Below, one piece after another: positions 3,983 through 22,909 of a stretch of DNA of 23,560 nucleotides. The DNA is from a virus. The stretch is from IMG/VR virus record IMGVR_UViG_3300031688_000130, positions 1-23,560 of that record; one strand, written 5' to 3'. The notes below the pieces were generated by a model, which was given only the letters and a program-made list of their open reading frames with translations, had not been told where the DNA came from and did no database searches. Made by a program: the position numbers and the translations under genes. Every line of letters begins with the position of its first letter. Position 1 is the first letter of the stretch.

Positions 3983-4199
3983 AATACCAAGCTACTACAT
4001 AGGAAGTCGCTACAAGATAGAAGCAAGAAAAGTTATTGAAGATTTTGATTTATCCTATAATGTAGGGACTGCCTGTTCATATCTTTTGCGTTGTGGCAAG
4101 AAAAAAGAGGAAGGTATGGATATTATAGATAAGCATATAGAGGATATACAGAAAGCAATTAATCATTTAGAGTTTGAACTTGATAAACTAAAAGGATGA
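3969..4199 (+). CDS. DUF3310-family phage protein
   Basis: A 76-residue protein with the DUF3310 pattern: a Tyr-x-x-Gly-x-x-Tyr start, 'EARKVIEDFDLSYNVGTACSYLLRCGKK' core (compare E-x-x-x-V/I-I-E-x-F-x-L-x-F-x-x-G-N-A-x-K-Y-x-x-R-x-G-x-K), and a C-terminal 'DIIDKHIEDIQKAINHLEFEL' helix (compare D-L-x-K-A-x-x-Y-L). The family is common in phages, sometimes fused to nucleotide kinases. It is linked to nucleotide metabolism or DNA-interaction roles, but no biochemical role is established that I know of. The stop overlaps the start of the second methyltransferase (ATGA at 4196-4199). Confidence 0.75.
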   Translation: MKDNRIPSYYIGSRYKIEARKVIEDFDLSYNVGTACSYLLRCGKKKEEGMDIIDKHIEDIQKAINHLEFELDKLKG

Positions 4200-4846
4200 A
4201 AATATTAAACTTATACGCTTGTCTTGGTGGGAACCGATATAAGTGGAATGAAGTAAAAGAAGATATAGAAGTAACTGCTATTGAACTAGACCCTGAATTA
4301 GCCAGATTATATCAAGAAAGATTTCCTAATGACACTGTAATCATAGCTGATGCACATCAATACTTATTAGACCATTATAAAGAATACGACTTTATTTGGA
4401 GTTCACCTCCTTGCCCAACACATAGCAGAGCAAGATATTGGGGATTTGGTGCTAATGGTAAAAACCCAACATACCCAGATATGAAATTATATCAAGAAAT
4501 AATATTTTTACAACATCATTGTAAGGGTAAGTATGTGGTTGAAAATGTAATACCTTATTACAAACCTTTGATTGAAGCAAAAGAAAAAGATAGACATTTA
4601 TATTGGTCAAATTTTAATCTACCTAATACTTTAAATTCAAGACATTTTACTGGTTTATGTCAGACAAATAATGAATTAAAAAAATTAGAATTGTTTCATA
4701 ATATAGAATTAAAAAGCTATAAAGGAAAACAACGCAAAGATAAGATATTACGAAACCTAGTAGACTATGAAGTAGGTAAAACAATCTTTGAAACTATGTT
4801 AGGTATTGTAAGAAGGGAAGTTATTAATCAAGAAGAATTATTTTAA
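4196..4846 (+). CDS. Short DNA cytosine-C5 methyltransferase (copy 2, divergent)
   Basis: A 216-residue paralogue of the 1840 gene, clearly alike from the start (MKILNLYA) through 'ADAH-x-YLLDH', 'DFIWSSPPC', 'LYQEIIFLQ', 'VENV' and 'YYKPLI'. The catalytic cysteine is C73 and motif VI Glu is E116. Two changes stand out: motif I reads 'LYACLGGN' instead of 'LYAGIGGN', so the first SAM-loop glycine is Cys, and motif IV is PPCPTHS instead of PPCQSHS. Residues 80-95 and about 140-190 differ most between the copies, where target choice would be expected to lie. It could have a different target, or be partly degenerate. The gene is coupled by ATGA to the DUF3310 gene. Confidence 0.8.
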   Translation: MKILNLYACLGGNRYKWNEVKEDIEVTAIELDPELARLYQERFPNDTVIIADAHQYLLDHYKEYDFIWSSPPCPTHSRARYWGFGANGKNPTYPDMKLYQEIIFLQHHCKGKYVVENVIPYYKPLIEAKEKDRHLYWSNFNLPNTLNSRHFTGLCQTNNELKKLELFHNIELKSYKGKQRKDKILRNLVDYEVGKTIFETMLGIVRREVINQEELF

Positions 4847-5778: not shown

Positions 5779-6970
5779 CGAAAAATATAATGCACTATTT
5801 ACATCAGATGCTAGATACTTTATTATAACAGGAGGTAGGGGTTCTGGAAAGTCTTTTGCAGTTACAGTTTTTCTAACGCTCTTAACTATGTCTAGGAATG
5901 TTAGAGTCCTATTCACACGTTATACAATGACATCAGCACACCTATCAATCATTCCTGAGTTCTTAGAGAAGATAGGGCTGCTTGGATATGACAATACCTT
6001 TAGCGTAAACAAAGCTGAGGTAATAAACTTAGGAAACAAATCAGACATCCTATTTAGAGGTATCAAGACATCAGCAGGAAACCAGACTGCAAGTCTAAAG
6101 TCATTACAAGGGATAAGCACTTGGGTACTTGATGAAGCCGAAGAACTTGTAGATGAGAATATCTTTGATACTATTGATTTAAGTATAAGAGAAAAGAAAG
6201 TGCAGAATAGAATCATATTAGTATTAAATCCAGTTACTAAAGAACATTGGATATACAAAAGGTTTTTTGAGGACAAAGGAGTTGAAGGTGGTTTTAATGG
6301 CGTTAAAGACAATGTATGCTATATCCATAGTACATACCTAGATAATGAAACAAATCTCTCTGAGAGCTTCCTAGAGCGTATTAAGAGCATAAGGCATAAT
6401 AACTTTAAAAAGTATCAGCATAAGATTCTTGGGGGATGGTTAGCAAAAGCCGAGGGGGTTGTCTTCGAAAATTGGAGTATAGGTGAATTTAATCCTGATA
6501 ACTTACAGACTTCTTGTGGAATGGACTTTGGGTTCTCAATAGACCCTGACTCATTAACTGAAGTAGCAATAGATAAGAAGCATAAGAAGATATACTTAAA
6601 AGAACACCTTTATCGTAATGGATTAAAGAGTCAAGAGCTTGCTCAGATAATATTAGACAAAGTAGATAGTAAATTAATCATAGCAGATTCAGCAGAGCCT
6701 AGACTAATAGCAGACTTAAAGCATTTAGGAGTAAACATTAAAGCAGTTAAGAAAGGAACTATTGAAAGTGGTATAACTAGAATGCAAGACTATGAGCTTA
6801 TAGTAAGTCCTGAATCAACTAACATAGCTAAAGAGTTAAACAACTATGTATATTCAGACAAGGGTTCAAAATTATACGTAGATAATTGGAATCACGCAAT
6901 AGACGGCATTAGATATAATGTAATCTATCACCTAGACAATCCAAACTCAGGAAGGTATTTTGTGCAGTAA
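5768..6970 (+). CDS. terL: Terminase large subunit (non-ATG start or frameshifted)
   Basis: DNA-packaging ATPase/nuclease, 400 residues if read from CTG 5768. Walker A 'GGRGSGKS' lies at residues 22-29 (5831-5854). Walker B is 'WVLDEAEE' (D122, E123) and the coupling motif 'LVLNP' has N154. The nuclease half has 'GMDFGF' (D253), 'IADSAEP' (D307) and 'AIDGIRY' (D379), the three expected metal-binding acidic residues. The first ATG in frame is at 5888, downstream of Walker A, so it cannot be the functional start. In-frame TAA at 5762-5764 limits the start to 5765 or later, and CTG 5768 is the only near-cognate start that restores the family-like N-terminus (NLSEKYNALFTSDARYFIIT). A +1 frameshift from terS is the alternative. 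Confidence 0.9.
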   Translation: MNLSEKYNALFTSDARYFIITGGRGSGKSFAVTVFLTLLTMSRNVRVLFTRYTMTSAHLSIIPEFLEKIGLLGYDNTFSVNKAEVINLGNKSDILFRGIKTSAGNQTASLKSLQGISTWVLDEAEELVDENIFDTIDLSIREKKVQNRIILVLNPVTKEHWIYKRFFEDKGVEGGFNGVKDNVCYIHSTYLDNETNLSESFLERIKSIRHNNFKKYQHKILGGWLAKAEGVVFENWSIGEFNPDNLQTSCGMDFGFSIDPDSLTEVAIDKKHKKIYLKEHLYRNGLKSQELAQIILDKVDSKLIIADSAEPRLIADLKHLGVNIKAVKKGTIESGITRMQDYELIVSPESTNIAKELNNYVYSDKGSKLYVDNWNHAIDGIRYNVIYHLDNPNSGRYFVQ

Positions 6971-7015: not shown

Positions 7016-7615
7016 ATGAAAGTTAAAATTAAAAAAGGAAGTAAATCAAAAGAGTTCAATTTAATCAATAGTTGGTCGGATGTTACGTTGGAAACTTGGC
7101 TAAAACTTATTGACTTTGAAACAGGAACAAAGACAGAAGAAGCTACAGAAACAATAGCAGCACTTTCTGACATTCCTAAGCAGTTAGTAAAGGAGTTATC
7201 CTTATCAGATGTAGCTGTTATAATGAGTAAGATAGGCGAGCTACAAGCCAAGCAAGATACTAAGCTAAAAAGGATAATAGAAGTAAATGGTGTTGAGTAC
7301 GGATATCATCCACAACTTTCAGAAATTACATTAGGTGAGTATGCAGACATAGAGCAGTTTATTAAGAACGGAATAGAAAATAATTTACCTGAATTAATGG
7401 CAGTTCTTTACAGACCTATTAAAGAAAAGAAAAATGATATTTATATTATAGACTCCTATGATGGAGATATACGACTCAGAGCAGAAGAGATAAAACAGAT
7501 GTCAGCAGAACAAGTGCAAAGTGCATTGGTTTTTTTTTACAATTTCGTGAAGGAGTTGTCGCTGATTTTGCCATCATATTTGATGGAGAAGCAGAAGGAA
7601 ATGAAACAGCAATAG
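7016..7615 (+). CDS. Tail-assembly-chaperone-like protein, zero-frame product
   Basis: A 199-residue protein with an N-terminal half of helices and strands, a central 'LSEITLGEYADIEQF' segment and 'LMAVLYRPIKEK', then 'MSAEQVQSALVFFYNFVKEL'. The 'T-L-G-E-Y … A-V-L-Y-R-P-I … FFY' series recurs in Bacteroidetes and marine phages. The gene has the layout of lambda gpG/gpGT-type tail assembly chaperones: a slippery run near its 3' end (7530-7538) and a second frame continuing to 7779. The shorter product ends with 25 residues unique to the zero frame. Chaperones of this type bind the tape measure during tail assembly. Here the tape measure gene is 6.6 kb downstream rather than adjacent, which is unusual. 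Confidence 0.65.
   Translation: MKVKIKKGSKSKEFNLINSWSDVTLETWLKLIDFETGTKTEEATETIAALSDIPKQLVKELSLSDVAVIMSKIGELQAKQDTKLKRIIEVNGVEYGYHPQLSEITLGEYADIEQFIKNGIENNLPELMAVLYRPIKEKKNDIYIIDSYDGDIRLRAEEIKQMSAEQVQSALVFFYNFVKELSLILPSYLMEKQKEMKQQ
7531..7537 (+). promoter_or_regulatory. Programmed -1 frameshift slippery heptamer T TTT TTT
   Basis: In the frame of the 7016 gene the codons read GTT TTT TTT TAC, so T7531 TTT7532-7534 TTT7535-7537 is a textbook X XXY YYZ heptamer within a run of nine Ts (7530-7538). A slip of one base continues with TTA CAA TTT CGT into the frame ending at 7779. A perfect hairpin, CCATCA-TATT-TGATGG (7571-7586), lies 33 bases downstream; that spacing is longer than usual for a stimulator, so its role is uncertain. 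Confidence 0.75.
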
Positions 7616-7779
7616 CAACTGAAGATTTTGCTAGCAAGTGGGGATGGTTCGGAGTTATGCACAGATTGTGTGGAGAGGATATAAGTAAATTAGAAAGTAT
7701 TACAAAGCTAAGTCTTTTAGAATGCTTGACCTGGCTAAGTTATGAAACAGATTTGAACTCACAAAATAAAGTAAAGTAA
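7537..7779 (+). CDS. Frameshift extension of the tail-assembly-chaperone-like protein
   Basis: This frame is -1 relative to the 7016 gene. It encodes 80 residues after the slip: a 'LQFREGVVADFAIIFDGEAE' start, then a helical domain containing 'FASKWGWFGVMHRLCGEDI' and 'LSLLECLTWLSYETD', to TAA at 7777-7779. The only ATG in it is well inside the conserved-looking domain, so it is unlikely to be translated alone. Fused to residues 1-174 of the upstream gene it gives a 254-residue product. The next gene begins at the base after its stop (7780), which supports this stop as a real gene end. The extension would correspond to the T part of lambda gpGT, which recruits the tail tube protein; that equivalence is inferred. 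Confidence 0.72.
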   Translation, partial: LQFREGVVADFAIIFDGEAEGNETAIATEDFASKWGWFGVMHRLCGEDISKLESITKLSLLECLTWLSYETDLNSQNKVK

Positions 7780-8328
7780 ATGGTTAATAATAAGACATAT
7801 AATAACGTAGTAAATACTCTTCTTAGATTAGGTGAGTATCACAAGCAAATAGAATCAACTTCTGTAGGAAATATATTTGACATCAATCTTGAAAAGATGC
7901 AGAAATTTCCCTTACTACATATTAACCCCACAAACGTAGTAACTGGCGAAAGTCAATTAACGTATAACTTCCAAATCTTTATTATGGACATGGTAACAGA
8001 AAAGGATAACTGGACTAAGAACTTTACAAACGCTAACTTTCCTAAATTAGTAAAAACTTTAACTAATGAGCAAGATGTATTTAATGAAACTTTACAAATT
8101 GTAACTGACTTCATTGGAATGCTTAGACACAGTACAAGACAATCATTAGCAGGAGTTGATGATATTAATTTCCCTTTATACTTTACGGAAGATCAATTTA
8201 CTATTGAGCCTTTTGAAGAAAGATTCGATAATCTTTGTTGCGGATATGTATTTAATATTGGTATCTTAGTTATGAATGACTTTCAGACTTGTGAAATTCC
8301 AGTAGATACTAATGGAGCAGGATATTAA
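7780..8328 (+). CDS. Putative tail terminator / tail completion protein
   Basis: A 182-residue soluble protein that starts directly after the frameshift-extension stop. It has an N-terminal helix, then 'SVGNIFDINLEKMQKFPLLH' and a beta strand with 'YNFQIFIMDMV', an acidic 'TNEQDVFNETLQIVTDFIGML' helix, and a C-terminal beta part. The mix of an N-terminal helix with strands around '(K/R)FP(L/V)' and a late helix recurs in Bacteroidetes siphophages and fits a tail terminator-like fold, but I cannot prove it. It lies between the chaperone-like gene and other neck/tail genes. Confidence 0.45.
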   Translation: MVNNKTYNNVVNTLLRLGEYHKQIESTSVGNIFDINLEKMQKFPLLHINPTNVVTGESQLTYNFQIFIMDMVTEKDNWTKNFTNANFPKLVKTLTNEQDVFNETLQIVTDFIGMLRHSTRQSLAGVDDINFPLYFTEDQFTIEPFEERFDNLCCGYVFNIGILVMNDFQTCEIPVDTNGAGY

Positions 8329-8403: not shown

Positions 8404-8850
8404 ATGGCAGACTTAGTAACGACAATCTCAGAAACATGTACACTTAATGGAAGCCTTAGAGGCTCAGTAAATTCTTTAACTACAGCAGGAGTTAATGACG
8501 TATTTGAAAGGATAGTAACCTGTACGGCATCAGTAACTACAACAGTAGCAGTATTCGATACGCTACCATCAACATCAGCAGGAGCTATTGATGTAGATAG
8601 GACTAGATACGTTCGAGTAACAAACTTGGAAACGGCAGTAGATATTGAGCTAGCAGTACAAACTACTACATCAAGTTATACAGTAACAGTAAGAGCAGGA
8701 GGTTCTCACGTTCTATATTCAGGTGATGTAATTGCTTTAGGTCAAGTAGGCGCTCCTTCTTTTGGAACTATGTTAAACTTAGCTTCTTTACAAGTAAAAC
8801 CTACAACAGCGGTTACTGCTAGAGTTGAAGTATTTGTTGGAGTAGAATAG
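8404..8850 (+). CDS. Small beta-rich virion protein (putative)
   Basis: A 148-residue protein rich in Thr, Ser and Val, with alternating hydrophobic residues throughout ('VTVRAGGSHVLYSGDVIAL'), predicting a beta-sandwich. There are almost no Lys or helices. It sits inside the tail block, and its stop overlaps the GTG start of the next gene (TAGTG at 8848-8852). Small beta proteins of this kind in phages include decoration and tail-tube-associated proteins. I do not recognise a specific family. Confidence 0.5.
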   Translation: MADLVTTISETCTLNGSLRGSVNSLTTAGVNDVFERIVTCTASVTTTVAVFDTLPSTSAGAIDVDRTRYVRVTNLETAVDIELAVQTTTSSYTVTVRAGGSHVLYSGDVIALGQVGAPSFGTMLNLASLQVKPTTAVTARVEVFVGVE

Positions 8851-9398
8851 TGAAAACTAAAAATATAGAAAGGTACTTAGAAAGCTTTGGGAAACAGGTA
8901 GTAAAAGATTCAAGAGATCTATTGCAAAATGCAAAAGGAAGTACTTCTTTAGGTAATTCAATTAGATTTACAGTAACAAAAGAAGAAGGTGGTTTTTCTA
9001 CAAAGTTCTACATGGAAGAATATGGACAGTTTTTAGATAAAGGAGTATCTGGAAATAAAGTAAAACAATCATATATAAACTATGATGGTCAAAAGAAATC
9101 AAGTCCAGGAAAAGGATATACAACCAAAGGTCCGCCAATTGATATATTATCTAAATGGATTAAAAAAAAAGGAATAAAACCAAAAGGATTTAAAAGAGGA
9201 AGGTCAAAAGATACAGGGCAATTTGTTTCAGGGTTTGCTTTTTTAATAAGTAGGAAAATAAAAAGAGAAGGAATTAAGAGTCTAAGCTTTTTTCAGAAAC
9301 CTTTAGGATTACAATTTAAAAAGTTAGAAAAAGATTTTCTTAAAATATTAACGTTAGATATAAGAAATAATCTTGTAGAATTTTATAGACCAAAATAA
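8850..9398 (+). CDS. HK97 gp10-like neck / tail completion protein
   Basis: A 182-residue basic protein starting at GTG. It has an N-terminal helix, then a strand pair and 'YMEEYGQFLDKGVSG' (residues 54-68), which matches the 'x-Y-x-x-F-L-x-x-G-V-x-G' segment typical of HK97 gp10-like and related head-tail joining proteins. This is followed by a long Lys/Gly loop (KGYTTKGPPIDILSKWIKKK). A nine-A run at 9162-9170 lies in frame and does not break the gene. Such proteins sit at the neck of the virion and fix the tail to the head or complete the tail. The family match is by motif. Confidence 0.6.
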   Translation: MKTKNIERYLESFGKQVVKDSRDLLQNAKGSTSLGNSIRFTVTKEEGGFSTKFYMEEYGQFLDKGVSGNKVKQSYINYDGQKKSSPGKGYTTKGPPIDILSKWIKKKGIKPKGFKRGRSKDTGQFVSGFAFLISRKIKREGIKSLSFFQKPLGLQFKKLEKDFLKILTLDIRNNLVEFYRPK

Positions 9399-9405
9399 TT
9401 AAATA

Positions 9406-10803
9406 ATGGCAACAATAATAGAACAGAAACCTTTATTCGATACTTTAACAGCAGGAGAGAATGTAATTTTTGCAGTATCTAATACTAATATAGTTTCAAC
9501 TTTTACAGATGTAAAATTTATTGCTACAGTACATATAAGCAACCAAATCCCTAACCCATCAGTATTAACAGATGTAGTAGGTACTTTTAAAACTACCCCT
9601 AACAATGCAGGAGTAGGAATGTTCAACTTTAGTCCTATAGTAGAAAGTTTTGTTAGTTCTGATAACTTAGCAAGGAAAGACAGTACATATAAAGGAGTGT
9701 TAAATGGAACAGATAATAACGTGCCTATGCATTTAATTGATAAATTCTCAGGAAATATTAATACTATGAGATACTTAGTCATAAAGTTTACTGTACAATA
9801 CAACGATGGCACAGGAAGTATTATTGAAAATACTACAGGAGATATTTCTTTACCTATGAAATTAATAAATGGGTATCTTAAATACACTGATGAGTTAGAT
9901 TTAAACGGTGTTAATTTTGGCTACAATATTCTTAATAAATTTTCCTTTTCAAATACTCAAGAAAGAAAGTTTTTGACTAATGCTCCTTTAATACAATACG
10001 CTAATATAAATGATTACGGAACTGTAGGGCTATTAATGTCAAATCCTTTTTTTCCAGGTTTAGGATCAGCAGGTGCATACGGTATAAGGTATAAGTATTA
10101 TGACGATTCAGACGTTCTTCTAAATTCTGAAGATATTCAACAATCAAGTAACGGGGGCTTTAAATATCCTCAATCTATTATAGACGCTCAAATACTTTAT
10201 GCAGGAGTCTTTCCTGCTAACTTATCTAACTGGAGTACTATATTTAACGTTAATATAACAAAATTATCATATTACACTTTTCAAGTCATAGGGTCTACTG
10301 GTACTGTTATGTCATCTTTATATAGGATGAATATTAACTGTCCTAACACAAAAGGATTTGAGTCTATTAGACTTTGTTGGTTAAATCAGTGGGGTACTTG
10401 GGACTACTATACTTTTATCATGAAGTCTATTAAGAAAATTTCTACAAAAGGAAGTACATACCAGCAATTAGAAGGAAGTTGGAACTCTAGCTCTTACAGA
10501 ATTGACAGCTTTAGAGGAGGCAAGAAAGCCTTTAGAGTAAATGCTAAAGAAAAGATAACAATGAATACAGATTTTGTAAACGAGTCAGAATCAGCTTGGT
10601 TCGAAGAGCTTATTAATAGTCCTGAAGTTTATCTGTTAAAGGAAAAATCATCTGATAAACTTAATTCTTCTCTTAATAAATATGTAACACCTGTAAGACT
10701 TACAACTTCTAGCTATACTAAAAAGACCGTCGCTAATGATAAGCTAATGCAGTACACTTTTGAAGTTGAAAAAAGCAAGACACTTAGAACTCAGTCTATA
10801 TAA
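9406..10803 (+). CDS. Virion structural protein, probably distal tail/baseplate
   Basis: A 465-residue beta-rich protein. The N-terminal region has 'FDTLTAGENVIFAVSN', the start of a beta-sandwich domain often seen in Bacteroidetes phage tail proteins. The middle contains 'RLCWLNQWGTWDYYTF' (about residues 322-337), a strong marker of this structural family. The C-terminal part has a 'W-F-E-E-L-x-x-S-P-x-V-Y-L' segment and ends with a strand and 'SKTLRTQSI', like distal tail proteins that form rings at the tail tip. It overlaps the next gene by one base (TAATG). The precise tail position is inferred from order. Confidence 0.6.
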   Translation: MATIIEQKPLFDTLTAGENVIFAVSNTNIVSTFTDVKFIATVHISNQIPNPSVLTDVVGTFKTTPNNAGVGMFNFSPIVESFVSSDNLARKDSTYKGVLNGTDNNVPMHLIDKFSGNINTMRYLVIKFTVQYNDGTGSIIENTTGDISLPMKLINGYLKYTDELDLNGVNFGYNILNKFSFSNTQERKFLTNAPLIQYANINDYGTVGLLMSNPFFPGLGSAGAYGIRYKYYDDSDVLLNSEDIQQSSNGGFKYPQSIIDAQILYAGVFPANLSNWSTIFNVNITKLSYYTFQVIGSTGTVMSSLYRMNINCPNTKGFESIRLCWLNQWGTWDYYTFIMKSIKKISTKGSTYQQLEGSWNSSSYRIDSFRGGKKAFRVNAKEKITMNTDFVNESESAWFEELINSPEVYLLKEKSSDKLNSSLNKYVTPVRLTTSSYTKKTVANDKLMQYTFEVEKSKTLRTQSI

Positions 10804-13511
10804 TGAGTGTTCAACTAATAATATATCCACAGATCTATGACGGTTACAATGCAAATATTTTTACGAATACAAGCCAATTTATTATTAACGGTAATAATTT
10901 TAGTACAGTAAATTCTTCAACAGATCATACAGTAACTTTATCAAATGGAACACAAGAAGCAATAGACTTTTATGGAGCATCTTTAACTGTTAATACATGG
11001 AAGAGATTTCATAAGGGTGCTTCTGGAGTTAGTGAATCAGGAGGTCTTGTAACTATAAATCCCAAATCAGGTCAAGTTCAGCAAGGGCTTATTCAGAAAT
11101 TATCTAATTTAACAGTAGGAAATTTTTATAATATTACTTTGGATATTAACACAAATATTAATACTACTAACGCTTTTGGTATTTGGATTTATTCAGGAAC
11201 TATTCTACAGCAAGTTATTCCTATTCCTAATAATACAGGTTTTGTAAATATTTCATTTAATGCCTTTTCAACAGATGATACTATTGTTATAGTTGGTGAT
11301 TCAACTATTGATCAGAAGCTTGTATTAAATTCTATTACTATTAGAGATGCACAACCTATTCCAACTGGAGCAATTCAAATATTAGGAGATGGGCAAGTTA
11401 TTTGTGATCTTTATGAAGATGAAGATTTACCACTTACTTTAAGTGTTGATGATTTTAAAAATGTCGCTGAAAATGTACAGTCTTATTCTAAAGCCTTTAA
11501 AATTCCTGGCACAAAAAGAAATAATAGAATATTCGATCATATTTTTGAAATTACTAGAGAAGTAGCTGGATCTGGAGGATTAATATTTAATCCATACCAA
11601 AAAACAAAAGCAGTTTTAAAGCAGGACGGATTTCTTTTATTTGAAGGATATTTAAGAATGTTAGATATAATAGATAAGGAAGGAGAAATTAGTTATAATG
11701 TAAATTTATATTCTGAAGTTATAGCTTTAGCCGATATTTTACAAGAAAGAACATTTAAAGATTTAGACTTTACAGAGCTAGAACATGACTATAATTATAG
11801 TAATATAAGAAACAGTTGGCAAGGAATATTACCAGTTGCACCTTTGCCTTCAGGAAGTTTTGCAGGCTCAACAGGAGCTACTGCTACTAATGTATTAAGA
11901 TATCCTTTTTGTAATTGGAATCATCAATATAGCTACACAAATTCAGGGAATCCAAAACTTACAACTTTAGAAAGCGCATTTAGACCTTTTATAAATATAA
12001 AATACTTAATTAATAATATTTTTGCAGATACAGATTTTACTTATGAATCTAATTTTTTTAATACTGCTGATTTTAATAAGCTTTTTATGGACTTTAACTG
12101 GGGGTCAGGCAATGCTCCTGTTATTTTTAACTCGACAGGTTTATTAACTAATAAAAGTGATGTTGGTCTTGGTACTTCTATGGCTACTTTAAATTTTGAT
12201 GAAATGAATGCACTTTTAGTTGGTGGCGATCCATTAAATGCAAATTTTGGATATTCAGCAGGAGTATTTACAGCTCAAGAAGACGGTCAAGTATATACGT
12301 TCAGTTATGATATGCGGTTCGATAATGTTTCATTATCAAGCGACACTGTATTTGTTCAATGGCTTGTTAATGGAACTCCTGTTGATGTGGCTACTTCAAC
12401 TTCTACTTTTTTCACTTATTCAGGATCTTTTACTACTTCACCATTAGCAGCAGGAGATACTGTGCTATGTCAAGCTTTTTCTACTTTAGGGTTGTATGAA
12501 TTAGATGGCGTTTTCGATCCATTCGGAACACCTTCATTAGTAACAATTACAACTACATCCTACCAAACTACATCAGATACGTTATTAGAAACTCTAAGAG
12601 GAGAATTAGGGCAGTGGGATTTCTTAAAAGGAATAATTACAATGTTTAATTTAGTAACTATTCCTGATGAAGATAATCCTTTAAATATAAAAATAGAACC
12701 GTATGCAGATATATTTGTAAATAATACAGATAGCGTTCAATTAAACTGGACTGAAAAAATAGATGTTTCTCAAATTAAATTAAAACCTTTAACAGAATTA
12801 AATAGAAAGACTATTTTTAAATTTGTTGAAGATGATGATGACTATGCATTTAATCAATATAAGAATTTAGTAGACGGTCATTTATACGGAAGTAAAAAGT
12901 TTATAGCTACAGATCAATTTGATATATTAACTGGAGAAGAAGAAATTATAGCAGAGCCTTTTGCAGCAACAGTAGTAAAGCCTCTTAGTTCTGAATTTCC
13001 TGAGTTAATAGTTCCTTCTATTTATTCTTATAATTTTAATGACGACACTTCTGAAGGATTCGATAACAGCCCTAGAATTATGTATAATAATGGGGTAGTA
13101 ACTATGACTTCAACTACTTATAGCGTTCCTACACAAAATGGAGTAGCTGGTGATGCATTTGAAGATGAATATTTACAGTTTAGTCATTTAACAGATATAC
13201 CTACAGTTACTTCTATTCCTCCAAGTTTAACAGATACTATAGACTTTCATTTTGGTGAATGTCAATTAATTACTGGAGTAGGAGCTCCTACTGTAAATAA
13301 TTTATTTGGTATGTACTGGCTTCCATACTTTAATGAGCTTTACAATCCTAATACTCGTATCATGACTATAAAAGTAGATTTAAGTCCTTCAGATATAAAT
13401 ACTTTTAAATTTAACGATACAGTTTTTATTAAGAACAGAGTCTTTAGAGTAAACAAAATAAACTACCAGCCGAACGAATTGGCAACAGTTGAATTTATAC
13501 TTATACCATAA
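10803..13511 (+). CDS. Large tail/baseplate protein with beta-sandwich (carbohydrate-binding-like) domains
   Basis: A 902-residue protein. Residues 1 to about 190 look like a beta-sandwich of the carbohydrate-binding type (Asn/Ser/Thr-rich, 'GNFYNITLDINTN', 'KLVLNSITIRDAQ'). Residues about 200-330 hold a core I have seen in Bacteroidetes phage tail proteins: 'DEDLPLTLSVDDFKNV', 'YSKAFKIPGTKRNNRIFDHI', 'FNPYQKTKAVL' and 'LLFEGYLRMLDI'. Residues about 460-590 are an inserted beta domain ('QVYTFSYDMRFDNVSL'). The C-terminus resembles a hub-type beta region. It probably forms part of the baseplate or tail hub, and the sandwich domains may bind host surface sugars. This is an inference. Confidence 0.6.
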   Translation: MSVQLIIYPQIYDGYNANIFTNTSQFIINGNNFSTVNSSTDHTVTLSNGTQEAIDFYGASLTVNTWKRFHKGASGVSESGGLVTINPKSGQVQQGLIQKLSNLTVGNFYNITLDINTNINTTNAFGIWIYSGTILQQVIPIPNNTGFVNISFNAFSTDDTIVIVGDSTIDQKLVLNSITIRDAQPIPTGAIQILGDGQVICDLYEDEDLPLTLSVDDFKNVAENVQSYSKAFKIPGTKRNNRIFDHIFEITREVAGSGGLIFNPYQKTKAVLKQDGFLLFEGYLRMLDIIDKEGEISYNVNLYSEVIALADILQERTFKDLDFTELEHDYNYSNIRNSWQGILPVAPLPSGSFAGSTGATATNVLRYPFCNWNHQYSYTNSGNPKLTTLESAFRPFINIKYLINNIFADTDFTYESNFFNTADFNKLFMDFNWGSGNAPVIFNSTGLLTNKSDVGLGTSMATLNFDEMNALLVGGDPLNANFGYSAGVFTAQEDGQVYTFSYDMRFDNVSLSSDTVFVQWLVNGTPVDVATSTSTFFTYSGSFTTSPLAAGDTVLCQAFSTLGLYELDGVFDPFGTPSLVTITTTSYQTTSDTLLETLRGELGQWDFLKGIITMFNLVTIPDEDNPLNIKIEPYADIFVNNTDSVQLNWTEKIDVSQIKLKPLTELNRKTIFKFVEDDDDYAFNQYKNLVDGHLYGSKKFIATDQFDILTGEEEIIAEPFAATVVKPLSSEFPELIVPSIYSYNFNDDTSEGFDNSPRIMYNNGVVTMTSTTYSVPTQNGVAGDAFEDEYLQFSHLTDIPTVTSIPPSLTDTIDFHFGECQLITGVGAPTVNNLFGMYWLPYFNELYNPNTRIMTIKVDLSPSDINTFKFNDTVFIKNRVFRVNKINYQPNELATVEFILIP

Positions 13512-14383: not shown

Positions 14384-16033
14384 ATGGCAAAGGAAGTATT
14401 AGAATTGGAAGTTAAGACCAATATTGGAAAAGTTACAAAAGACCAAAAGGATTTTAACAAAGAACTTAAAAAAACTGAAGGAATTATAGAAGATGTTAAT
14501 GCTGAAGGTAAAAATACAGTATCAGAAATGCAAGTACTAGGTCTTTCTATAAACGGCTTAAAAGCTAGTTGGAAGTCTGCTGCTAGTGGAGCTAAGTTTC
14601 TATTTAGCAGTATTAAGTTAGGGATTGCTTCAACAGGTGTTGGGCTTTTACTTTTAGCTTTTGGTGCTTTAGCTACTTGGTTTGCTAAAACAAAAAAGGG
14701 TGCTGAAGTATTATCTGTAGCTTTTAAAGGTATTGGAGCAGCAGTTAATGTAATTGTAGATAGAATAGCTAACTTTGGAGGTGGAATTGCTAAATTATTT
14801 TCAGGAAATATAAGGGCAGGGTTAAAAGATATGGGTAATTCTTTTAAAGGTATTGGAGAAGAAATTAAAAATGACACTCTTTTAGCAATGGCTTTAGAAA
14901 AGTCTTTTCAGCGATTAACTGACAACCAAAGAGCGTTAAGTGTTGAAACTGCACAAAGAAGAGCTGATATTGAAGAATTAAAGCTAATAGCTGAAGATGT
15001 TACTAAGTCAGAAGAAGAAAGATTTAATGCAGCAGAAAAAGCTTTTAGTATAGAAACAGATTTATTAGAAAGAAGAATAGCTAACGCAACAGAAGCTGTT
15101 AGAATTGAAAAATTACGTTTATCTACTGTATTAGACCCTGAAGCAGAAGCACTAGATATTCTTGCACAAAAAGAAGTAGAACTTGCAACTATAAGAGGTG
15201 AATCTGTTACAAAACAAATAGAACTTAATAATAAGATAAATGCAATTAAGCAGGAAACTATTAATAAAAATATAGAAATAGCATCTCAAAATGAAGCAGA
15301 AGTAAAAGCAGCAGAAACTTTAATTAGAGAGCTAGAAATGATTAGACAGAAAGACCAAAATGGAAAAGACTTACGAGCTTTAAAAAATGAAACAGAAGAC
15401 GCTAAAGCTGCTGCTAGATTAACAGGTACGGCAGAGGAAGTAGCAGAAAAAATAAGACTAATTGATTTAATTTACGATGAAAAATATAAGGACTTAATAG
15501 ACAAACGATTTGACTATGACGTAAATGGAAACAAAGAAACAGGTATAAAAGTATTAAAAACTGATAAAGAAATTGCAGATGCAAAGGTGGCTATGCAATT
15601 TGATATGGCAAACCAAGGTCTAAGTATTTTAGCATCAGCAGCAGGTGAAGGAACAGCACTAGCAAGGGCTGCTGCAATAGCACAAGCTACTATATCAGGA
15701 GTCCAAGGAGTACAAAATGCATTTACATCAGCTAATGCAAATATAGGAGCAACAGCAGGAACTTTTGGAGCTTATCCTGTAACTATGGCAGCTCTAGCAG
15801 GAACTTTTGCAGCTATGAATATTGCTAAAATTGCAAGTGGTGGTAAACCAGGAGGAAGTGGAGGAGGAGGAGGCGGAGCAGCAGCTGCAACACCTGCGCC
15901 TCAAATGATGTCAGGGTCTTTTGATATTACAGGGGGAGTAGCTCCAGAACCAATGAAAGCCTTTGTAGTTACTGATGAAATGACAAACAGTCAAGACCAA
16001 TTAGCAAATATAAGACGTAGAGCTACTATCTAA
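14384..16033 (+). CDS. Tape measure protein
   Basis: A 549-residue protein with the usual parts of a siphophage tape measure. It has a charged N-terminal helix (residues 1-60), a hydrophobic segment at about 79-100 ('LGIASTGVGLLLLAFGALAT'), long coiled-coil stretches (about 175-410, rich in Ala, Glu and Lys), and an Ala/Gly-rich C-terminal hydrophobic part (about 415-490) followed by Gly-rich linker residues. Tape measures set tail length and are injected with the DNA. At 549 residues it is on the short side, so the tail is likely short to medium; the length estimate depends on how much of the protein is helical. The leader 'aataaaactATG' matches others in this phage. Confidence 0.8.
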   Translation: MAKEVLELEVKTNIGKVTKDQKDFNKELKKTEGIIEDVNAEGKNTVSEMQVLGLSINGLKASWKSAASGAKFLFSSIKLGIASTGVGLLLLAFGALATWFAKTKKGAEVLSVAFKGIGAAVNVIVDRIANFGGGIAKLFSGNIRAGLKDMGNSFKGIGEEIKNDTLLAMALEKSFQRLTDNQRALSVETAQRRADIEELKLIAEDVTKSEEERFNAAEKAFSIETDLLERRIANATEAVRIEKLRLSTVLDPEAEALDILAQKEVELATIRGESVTKQIELNNKINAIKQETINKNIEIASQNEAEVKAAETLIRELEMIRQKDQNGKDLRALKNETEDAKAAARLTGTAEEVAEKIRLIDLIYDEKYKDLIDKRFDYDVNGNKETGIKVLKTDKEIADAKVAMQFDMANQGLSILASAAGEGTALARAAAIAQATISGVQGVQNAFTSANANIGATAGTFGAYPVTMAALAGTFAAMNIAKIASGGKPGGSGGGGGGAAAATPAPQMMSGSFDITGGVAPEPMKAFVVTDEMTNSQDQLANIRRRATI

Positions 16034-16068: not shown

Positions 16069-17115
16069 ATGCCTTGCGAAAAATGTGAAAACGGAAAATA
16101 TAAATGGGGAAAGACTGGCTCTTGTAAGTACGATACAAAAGCAGACTGTGAAGAAGACAATAAAGACTATTATGAAGATATGAAGGAAACTAAAATTGTA
16201 GAATTAGTAATTTCAGACGATAGTCAAGAATTAGCAATAGACGCTATTAGTTTAGTAACGAGTCCTGCAATAGAACAAGACTTTGTATTCTTTGGTAAAG
16301 AAAAGAACAATTTAACCTTTGCTAAAGTAGATGAAGAAAAGCGTATGCTAGTAAGTCCTGCTTTGATTCCTAATAAAAACATATTCAGGCACGACCCTAA
16401 TACAGACTCAGACTACTATGTTTACTTTTCAAAAGAAACAGTAAGAAAGGCTGCTGAACTTTACCTAAAACATAACAATCATCACAAAGCTACTTACCAA
16501 CACCAAGACAGAGTTTCAGGCGTTCTAACAGTTGAATCTTGGATAAAAGAAGGAGATAGTGATAAGTCTAAATTATACGGCTACGACTTACCTAACGGCA
16601 CTTGGTTCGTTAAGATGAAGATAGAGAATGACGAGCTGTGGCAAAAGATTCGGAGTGGTGAGCTAAAAGGTCTGAGTATAGAAGGTTATTTCACAAATAA
16701 ATTTGAACAAATGCAAAAAGCAGAACCAACAACAGAAGAAATAAGAACTGCATTAAAAGAATTGTTAAGTAAAAAAAAAGTTAAAAAATTAGAGTTAGGT
16801 GCTATTGATGACTTGAATAGTTTAGTAAAAGAATTTACTTCAAAAATAGTACCTAAATACGAAAAAATAGTAAAAGAACAAGATGATTGGATTAAGATGG
16901 GAGATAAATTAAAGTCAAAAGCAGAAACCGAATATAAAGCTTATAATAAAAATGAAGCGTCTATGCTTAAATTAATGACTTTAATTAAAAAACAAGCAAA
17001 AGAATTAGGAGTAAATGTTATGGATATAAAAGATTATAAAAAAGCAGTAAATGCTTCTGATAGTAATTCAAGAATATACAAAACTTATGAAAGTATTAAA
17101 AAAATAAAAGTATAA
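16069..17115 (+). CDS. XkdF-like head maturation protease with added N- and C-terminal modules
   Basis: A 348-residue protein with three parts. Residues 1-40 hold a cysteine cluster (C3, C6, C19, C27) in a 'PCEKCENGKYKWGKTGSC' module. Residues about 42-210 carry the XkdF-type serine-protease signature: 'LVSPALIPNK', 'YYVYFSKETVRKAAELYL', H145 in 'TYQHQD', 'VESWIKEGD' with S157, 'GTWFVKMKI', and 'GELKGLSIEGYF'. Such proteases cut the capsid and scaffold proteins during prohead maturation. Residues 218-348 are a coiled-coil module that is related to the two small genes that follow. A late-promoter-like motif lies directly upstream. Confidence 0.8.
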   Translation: MPCEKCENGKYKWGKTGSCKYDTKADCEEDNKDYYEDMKETKIVELVISDDSQELAIDAISLVTSPAIEQDFVFFGKEKNNLTFAKVDEEKRMLVSPALIPNKNIFRHDPNTDSDYYVYFSKETVRKAAELYLKHNNHHKATYQHQDRVSGVLTVESWIKEGDSDKSKLYGYDLPNGTWFVKMKIENDELWQKIRSGELKGLSIEGYFTNKFEQMQKAEPTTEEIRTALKELLSKKKVKKLELGAIDDLNSLVKEFTSKIVPKYEKIVKEQDDWIKMGDKLKSKAETEYKAYNKNEASMLKLMTLIKKQAKELGVNVMDIKDYKKAVNASDSNSRIYKTYESIKKIKV

Positions 17116-20905: not shown

Positions 20906-22909
20906 ATGGATAAAATACTTTCAGTAGATTTAAGCACTTCAACAGCTCCTTTGGTACAAGAGGTTAGAGGAAAAGATTACATTGAGTACGGCGACTCTAA
21001 TGGAGAATGGAGAAACCTTTACCCACAGTTTTTAATTGACCTTTACTATTCAAGTTCTATAACGGCTGCAATCGTAAATGCGACTAGCGAAATGATAAGT
21101 GCTGAATCCCTAGTCATAACAGATGAAGATGATAGAGATGAAGAGGCAAGAGTAAAGCTACAGAACTTTATGAATAATGCTAATGGTAATGAAACACTAC
21201 ACGAGGTATTAAAAAAGGTAGCATTTGACTTTAAATTACAAGGAGCATTTGCACTTAATATAGTATGGTCAAAAGATAGAACTCAGATAGCTGAAATCTA
21301 TCATATACCAGTCGAAAAAATCAGGACCGAGCGTCCTGACGAATTTGGAAAAACTAGAGGGTACTATGTATCAGGAGATTGGGCAAATACAAGAACGAAC
21401 AAGCCTTATAGAGTTCCAGCCTTTAATGTTAATGATAGAACTTCACCTAATCAAATTCTTTATACAGGGCTTTACAGTCCTAATATGAATAGCTATTATA
21501 CGGCTGATTACATATCTTGTAATAACTGGGCGTTAATTGATTCTAAAGTTTCTGAGTTTCATCTTAATAATATATCTAACGGATTTACTGGCTCGTTTAT
21601 GATATCATTTGCGAATGGAATCCCAACGGCTGAAGAAAGAAATCAGATAGAAAGAAGTTTAGAAGATAAATTTACATCAGAAAAAAATGCAGGTAAATTC
21701 GTTTTGACTTTTTCAGATGACAAGACTAGAGTACCAGAAATAACTTCTATTAGTCCATCAGATTTAGATAAGCAGTATTTAGCACTCCAAGAACTTTTAA
21801 CTAGCAACATCCTCTCAGGTCATAGGGTTACTTCTAAGACACTTATGGGCTTAGATAGTGCTAACGGGTTCTCAAGCAATGCAGACGAGCTAGCAAACGC
21901 TAGTAATTTTTATCTTAATACGGTAATAATGCCATTCCAAGGGCAAATCTTAAAAGTATTGCACAAAATATTCCAAGTAAATAACATGGATATGCCAGTC
22001 CAGTTCGTACAGCTTAAACCAATAACAATTCAATTTGATTCTGCAACTATCAGGGATGTTATGACTCAGGACGAAATAAGAGAAGAAATAGGATTACCGC
22101 CTTTAGAAGGAGAAGCAGTTGAAGATTTTAAAAAAGAATTTGCTAAAGTTGGAATGATTGATGGAAAACCTGTTTATGACACCATAGAAGAAGCCTTAGC
22201 AAGTGCAAAGACTTTAGGGTGTGAAGGCTACCACTCACACGAATTAGAAGGTAAGACAGTCTATATGGCTTGCGAAGGTCATAAGGAAGCTACTGAGCTT
22301 TCAAAGTTCATAGAGGAGTTTGGAGAAGATATTTCTGAAGATTGGGAATTAATAGAAGAAGAAGTAGTAGACGGAGAACATCAAGACTTTAATTATGAAG
22401 AAGTATTAAATGATATTGCAGGCGAAAAGATTGAACTAGCTTCAACAGGTAGGGCAATTCCTAGTCGTAAGTCAGAACAAGATGGTATCTCTAAAAAGAC
22501 TTATGATTATTTCAGAGTTCGTTATGTTTATTCTAATGACAATTTCTTAACTAATAAGTCAGGAACTAAAAGAGAATTTTGCAGAAAGATGACAGCTGCT
22601 AAAAAACTTTACAGAAAGGAAGATATAATTAATATGAGTACAAAGGCAGTTAATCCTGGATTTGGAAAAGGAGGAGCTAATACTTACTCAATTTGGCTAT
22701 ATAAAGGAGGACCTCAATGTTTCCATTTTTGGAGTAGAAGAATCTTCAAGACTACAATAGGAGAATCTAGGACTACTAAAATAGAAGACGCTGATATGAT
22801 TGGCTACACGAAAGCAAAGTCAGAAGGCTTTACTGCTAAAAAGAATGATAAGCTAGTTGCAACGCCACCAAGAAAAATGAAAAATAACGGATATATAAAC
22901 GCAAGATAA
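20906..22909 (+). CDS. Portal protein with an appended C-terminal cysteine/histidine-containing region
   Basis: A 667-residue protein. Residues 1 to about 410 have portal features: 'YGDSNGEWRNLYPQFLIDLY', a stem-like helix around 290-310, 'VTSKTLMGLDSANGFSS' (309-325), and 'DVMTQDEIREEIGLPPL' (384-400), a familiar portal end. Portals are the ring at the capsid vertex through which DNA moves. Residues 427-465 form a small 'LGCEGYHSH … YMACEGH' module with C439, H443, H445, C456 and H459, a possible metal site. Residues 510-640 are another module ('FRVRYVYSN', 'KREFCRKMTAAKKLYRKEDI', 'NTYSIWLYKGGPQCFHFWSR'). It may act in head maturation or bind the protease; that is a guess. Confidence 0.78.
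   Translation: MDKILSVDLSTSTAPLVQEVRGKDYIEYGDSNGEWRNLYPQFLIDLYYSSSITAAIVNATSEMISAESLVITDEDDRDEEARVKLQNFMNNANGNETLHEVLKKVAFDFKLQGAFALNIVWSKDRTQIAEIYHIPVEKIRTERPDEFGKTRGYYVSGDWANTRTNKPYRVPAFNVNDRTSPNQILYTGLYSPNMNSYYTADYISCNNWALIDSKVSEFHLNNISNGFTGSFMISFANGIPTAEERNQIERSLEDKFTSEKNAGKFVLTFSDDKTRVPEITSISPSDLDKQYLALQELLTSNILSGHRVTSKTLMGLDSANGFSSNADELANASNFYLNTVIMPFQGQILKVLHKIFQVNNMDMPVQFVQLKPITIQFDSATIRDVMTQDEIREEIGLPPLEGEAVEDFKKEFAKVGMIDGKPVYDTIEEALASAKTLGCEGYHSHELEGKTVYMACEGHKEATELSKFIEEFGEDISEDWELIEEEVVDGEHQDFNYEEVLNDIAGEKIELASTGRAIPSRKSEQDGISKKTYDYFRVRYVYSNDNFLTNKSGTKREFCRKMTAAKKLYRKEDIINMSTKAVNPGFGKGGANTYSIWLYKGGPQCFHFWSRRIFKTTIGESRTTKIEDADMIGYTKAKSEGFTAKKNDKLVATPPRKMKNNGYINAR

Follow-up and report, generated by a model that had tools for sequence, protein, structure and literature searches.

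The window analysed here is the whole of a 23.6-kb virus record, taken as one strand. Directly downstream of a terminase large subunit gene (5888..6970, + strand; Pfam Terminase_3, E 4e-28), an open reading frame on the same strand at 7016..7615 encodes a predicted product of 199 aa. Near its end, this frame passes through nine consecutive T residues (7530..7538, + strand), which by direct reading lie in the phase GTT TTT TTT TAC and hold an in-phase T TTT TTT heptamer, the predicted point of a −1 frame change, at 7531..7537 (+ strand). Any run of at least nine Ts contains such an in-phase heptamer, whatever its phase, and the heptamer conforms to the pattern X XXY YYZ. The −1 frame is open from 7537 (LQFREGVVADF...) to a stop codon at 7777-7779 and specifies a domain of 80 aa (7537..7779, + strand) with a conserved FxxKWGW motif. 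The stretch 7538..7615 (+ strand) is thus read in both frames, giving a tail of 25 aa plus stop in the 0 frame. A shift at the heptamer would produce a fused protein of 254 aa that has its first 174 residues, the N-terminal domain, in common with the 199-aa form, and whose predicted junction-spanning peptide is QMSAEQVQSALVFFLQFR. The sequence-only reading had described this slippery run, the extents of the two frames, the products of 199 and 254 residues and a next gene beginning at 7780, and each of these was confirmed by direct reading and translation; the next gene (7780..8328, + strand; 182 aa) has its ATG at 7780, directly after the −1 frame stop.

Further along, a neck/tail-completion-like protein is encoded at 8850..9398 (+ strand; PHROG 29822, E 2e-16), the P12024L member of this PHROG matching phrog_5, tail completion or Neck1, at E 4e-4. 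Several genes separate the frameshift gene from position 14384, where a homologue of a P12024L tape-measure protein begins (14384..16033, + strand; PHROG 32985, E 1e-15); here the P12024L member matches phrog_9483, tail length tape measure, at E 6e-12. A portal protein is encoded at 20906-22909. The closest named phages are the Nonlabens phages P12024L and P12024S (recorded host Persicivirga sp., source seawater), and a megablast search against 50,697 phage records found no near relative of the window as a whole. The window also holds A9 runs within coding regions at 9162-9170 and 16771-16779, such runs being uncommon in these phages, and two similar ORFs at 1840-2433 and 4196-4846 (KILNLYAGIGGNRHLW / KILNLYACLGGNRYKW; SSPPCQSH / SSPPCPTH), which by their sequences look like a duplicated gene of the DNA cytosine methyltransferase type.

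The conservation of the run and of the frame relation was assessed by an IMG/VR scan with the fused protein as query. This found 316 encoding stretches, the best 80 of which were kept, and in all of these best 80 of 316 the layout was identical to that of the window. Wider scans extended the set to loci with protein halves 24-36% identical to the window's, and a scan of genome contigs added a single locus from a metagenome-assembled genome, of Flavobacteriaceae (L177), with a comparable site of ten Ts. The scored set consisted of 256 loci, 207 of them distinct at 240 nt, with two loci left out: L256, because its sequence ends before the site, and L183, which is discussed below. Among the 207 distinct loci, the run at the junction was nine Ts in 141, ten in 65 and twelve in one, and never fewer than nine, and the C-terminal domain was in the −1 frame wherever it could be placed in a scored locus. 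The codon contexts of the site vary (GTT TTT TTT TAC; CTT TTT TTT TTC TAC; ATT TTT TTT TTG TGG; ATG TTT TTT TTT GCT; GTG TTT TTT TTT CTG; GGT TTT TTT TTG), and the run drifts across several codon columns among relatives whilst its length stays at nine or more. The proposed alignment of the −1 domain and the run across relatives therefore upheld both over the 256 loci, and the relatives devoid of a slippery run that would have told against a programmed site did not appear. Synonymous-codon shuffles within the other ORFs of these loci (523 kb) gave an expectation of ∼12 runs of at least nine Ts, against one seen, and yet every scored homologue has the run, which argues that its presence is not due to chance.

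Long homopolymers are prone to sequencing error, and the simplest artefact would be a miscounted run in a gene that is really a single ORF with ten Ts. One locus behaves as this predicts: L183 has nine Ts where its closest relatives have ten, its −1 relation is broken and its C domain falls in another frame, so that its one-T deficit is itself probably a miscount, judging from the sequence. For the window, a different T count on resequencing was not borne out, as the same nine Ts are found in L003-L007, five contigs of 99% identity that come from four metagenome data sets, and in the two isolate genomes, P12024L and P12024S, so the T9 is not an assembly error. The run is likewise kept in all the other classes of relatives, divergent codon contexts hold the same −1 relation, and no single-ORF relative occurs among the scored loci. 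We therefore regard a miscount as the explanation of the locus as extremely improbable.

Other features of the runs were seen in passing. Two contigs carry two copies each of the frameshift gene (G003 at 2999 and 34784, G006 at 8841 and 38004), with nine Ts in all four and clear divergence between the G003 copies; such pairs could come from phages in tandem, from a second tail module or from sequences joined during assembly. L183 (at 4375) and its relative L181 (at 3435) have in common a second T9, GCAAAG-T9-ACTAAG, in another gene, and since such runs hardly occur elsewhere in these coding regions it could be another slip site.

Coding constraint on either side of the run was examined through the variability of codon positions in 40 distinct genes of equal geometry from one of three groups of relatives, group A, to which the window belongs. 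Upstream of the run, the values for frame 0 positions 1/2/3 were 0.115/0.062/0.295. In the overlap (7538..7615 in the window), counted in frame −1, they were 0.142/0.068/0.156, with the 0-frame second positions varying most, the −1 second positions least, and third-position variation lowered in both frames. Past the 0-frame stop, frame −1 gave 0.090/0.051/0.286. The quietest position thus moves from the 0-frame to the −1-frame second positions at the run, and the sequence comparison indicates that coding constraint in group A passes from frame 0 to frame −1 there. Group C, with a 0-frame tail of ∼55 aa, shows a weaker switch (0.193/0.133/0.183), as would fit both frames being under some constraint; for group B, the calculation covered four usable sequences. 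The group C relatives also have a hairpin followed by nine Ts (GGGTGTTAGAAATAGCACC-T9) ∼36-55 nt upstream of the ATG of the frameshift gene (L265:430-464, L263:700-730), and T9 pairs of equal spacing are present in G002 and G004. The element resembles an intrinsic terminator, which suggests that a new transcript may begin at the frameshift gene.

The isolates are the place where the downstream domain has been annotated otherwise. At the equivalent position, both have CATAC-T9-ATCATT, and in P12024L the −1 frame beyond the run reads LSFRERL...KWGWY...WLAYQSDL, giving a predicted junction peptide MLEAPLIAYSSCILFFLSFR. The P12024 records show two hypothetical proteins here, gp40 and gp41 in P12024L, with the ATG of gp41 overlapping the stop of gp40 (TAATG). 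On this annotation, the downstream domain would be initiated independently and made as a protein of its own, through translational coupling with the first ORF, and an in-frame ATG is indeed found before the KWGW motif in 16/17 group B loci. However, group C offers only GTG (23/78 loci), and in group A, the window included, none of the 80 loci has an ATG, GTG or TTG there; the window contains no ORF of at least 50 aa with such a start that ends at 7779. An internal start for the −1 domain was accordingly rejected for group A, as expected from the earlier claim that this frame lacks an upstream start of its own. In P12024L itself, the T9 and the conserved −1 stretch LSFRERL...YPELY both precede the annotated ATG of gp41, and because homology in the −1 frame extends ahead of that ATG, the gp40/gp41 split is an effect of annotation. 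Thus, the phage in which the downstream domain might have proved to be a separate gene does not bear this out, and we give coupled translation from a second start very little credence. The split also extends to protein families: the P12024L halves match PHROG 32199 and PHROG 38404 strongly (the latter at 4e-43), and the window's N half matches PHROG 32199 at E 5e-12 and its C half PHROG 38404 weakly, at E 0.025. The two PHROGs, listed apart and each without an assigned function, are here the two halves of one gene.

The conserved −1 relation, the run, the switch of constraint and the absence of a −1 start in close relatives together make it very probable that the locus is one gene, in which two ORFs are joined by a programmed −1 fusion, whichever machine slips. 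From one start, two proteins would be made, and slipping at the T run would fix their ratio. The majority of events would yield the 199-aa short form, and a fraction would shift by −1 at T TTT TTT, or would proceed on an mRNA carrying an additional U, to yield the 254-aa form, which adds a predicted helical C-terminal domain with FxxKWGW. Beyond the fusion itself, we infer a short/long ratio, a chaperone role and the ribosome as slipping machine.

The ribosomal and transcriptional models yield an identical protein outcome. In the transcriptional model, the slip is made by RNA polymerase, which inserts an additional U at the run of at least nine Ts, and straight translation of the resulting U10 mRNA gives the long form. 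The invariance of the run fits this well: many bacterial genomes show evident selection against slippage once an A/T run reaches nine, and in Shigella mxiE and in IS elements, as here, a U/A homopolymer joins two ORFs on the addition of one base, although slippage is demonstrated in those systems, they are not phage tail genes, and the present case is read from sequence (PMC1088944). The drift of the run over codon columns at a constant minimum length points the same way. On the other hand, the conserved hydrophobic residues on either side of T TTT TTT (NTT ahead of it, TTA/TTT behind it in the −1 frame) lead to nine Ts almost automatically, so that the invariant run does not separate the models, and run length was rejected as proof of transcriptional slippage.

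A downstream stimulatory RNA structure is common, though not universal, in −1 programmed ribosomal frameshifting. No conserved structure was detected downstream of the run in pseudoknot-free folding, the mean z being −0.5 to +0.5 in three groups, and the consensus fold reached −2.4 kcal/mol over 123 columns with a two-sided change in 1/11 pairs. The codon shuffles described above showed how other T runs are avoided. Runs of eight were seen 6 times against 39 expected and runs of nine 4 times against 10.2, three of the four being this very site in added loci. Depletion was strongest for T8 without an in-phase heptamer (3 seen, 26.4 expected), whilst in-phase T7 heptamers were fairly common (29 seen, 49.5 expected). 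T runs elsewhere thus seem to be avoided by length and not by ribosomal phase, which points to a hazard of the polymerase type and agrees with the published study of A/T runs (PMC1088944), although replication slippage could also cause avoidance of long runs. The absence of conserved RNA structure and the avoidance by length make RNA polymerase nearly as likely as the ribosome. All demonstrated phage tail chaperone frameshifts known to us are ribosomal, and we know of no report of transcriptional slippage for a tail chaperone. Slipping by the ribosome at the T run is slightly favoured, at a little better than an even chance, and slippage by RNA polymerase is a serious contender that falls somewhat short of one.

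The product of the gene is probably a tail assembly chaperone, an assignment drawn from its architecture, the neck-like gene, the distant tape-measure homologue and a low-scoring structural similarity to HK97 gp13. Neither half matched a Pfam or NCBIfam model, and a PDB sequence search with profiles returned nothing convincing. AlphaFold2 modelled residues 1-174 with a pLDDT of 85.6, and the C-domain alone poorly (pLDDT 67). Foldseek against the PDB with the N-domain model found nothing significant (E 7.7); after realignment of the Foldseek list with VIA-align 2, the top chain was HK97 gp13 (2ob9_B; Z 3.4, 69 residues, 3.5 A), a low score, followed by Z 2.4 in a list otherwise nearly empty. 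This best structural match of the N-domain model is thus weak, and concerns residues 1-82 only. A viral structure library returned mostly unnamed phage proteins, with some matches of low significance that carry the label tail assembly chaperone, among them ctCpR1 (prob 0.90, E 0.03). R9VW65 of Flavobacterium phage 6H, taken by its length as the 191-aa CDS at 10352-10927, was another weak structural match. That CDS has no run of eight or more Ts inside, and the region around it (10040-10960, minus strand) seems to continue in other frames, possibly through sequencing errors or a different frameshift signal.

The comparison with lambda gpG/gpGT holds in several respects. Short and long forms have a common N-terminus, the two ORFs overlap and, close to where the first one ends, a heptamer marks a conserved −1 change, and a tape-measure homologue lies downstream on the same strand. 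Unlike in lambda, the site is a T9-T12 homopolymer, and no Pfam or NCBIfam chaperone model matched the predicted protein. The lambda G/GT arrangement first proposed for the locus thus stands as to the overlapping ORFs and the −1 relation and holds only in part as to gene order: the gene sits directly behind the terminase, with ∼6.6 kb between it and the tape-measure homologue, and no major tail protein was recognised among the window's genes. By analogy with lambda, coating of the tape-measure protein would fall to the part common to both forms and recruitment of the major tail protein to the long form, and neither form would remain in the virion.

Frameshifted tail chaperones are established (review, PMC5009743), and in one phage, two genes from a tail chaperone cluster gave measured values of 6% and 7% (PMC3711429). 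The literature searched, which included flavophage papers and few subscription papers, described neither this family nor the site, in agreement with the original remark that none was known in such phages. The frameshift gene is an unannotated, widespread case of established tail-chaperone frameshifting with an unusually uniform slippery run. The long protein has been missed because gene callers split or truncate the gene, as in the P12024 records. The analysis proposes a function for PHROG 32199 and PHROG 38404 and joins both into one gene, in phages that are common in marine metagenomes (hundreds of contigs). There is somewhat less than an even chance that in this widespread lineage of marine flavophages the long tail chaperone arises through slippage of RNA polymerase at the run of at least nine Ts, as a transcriptional version of lambda G/GT. 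The site lends itself, as a clean natural test, to asking whether the polymerase can take the ribosome's place in setting a tail-chaperone ratio.
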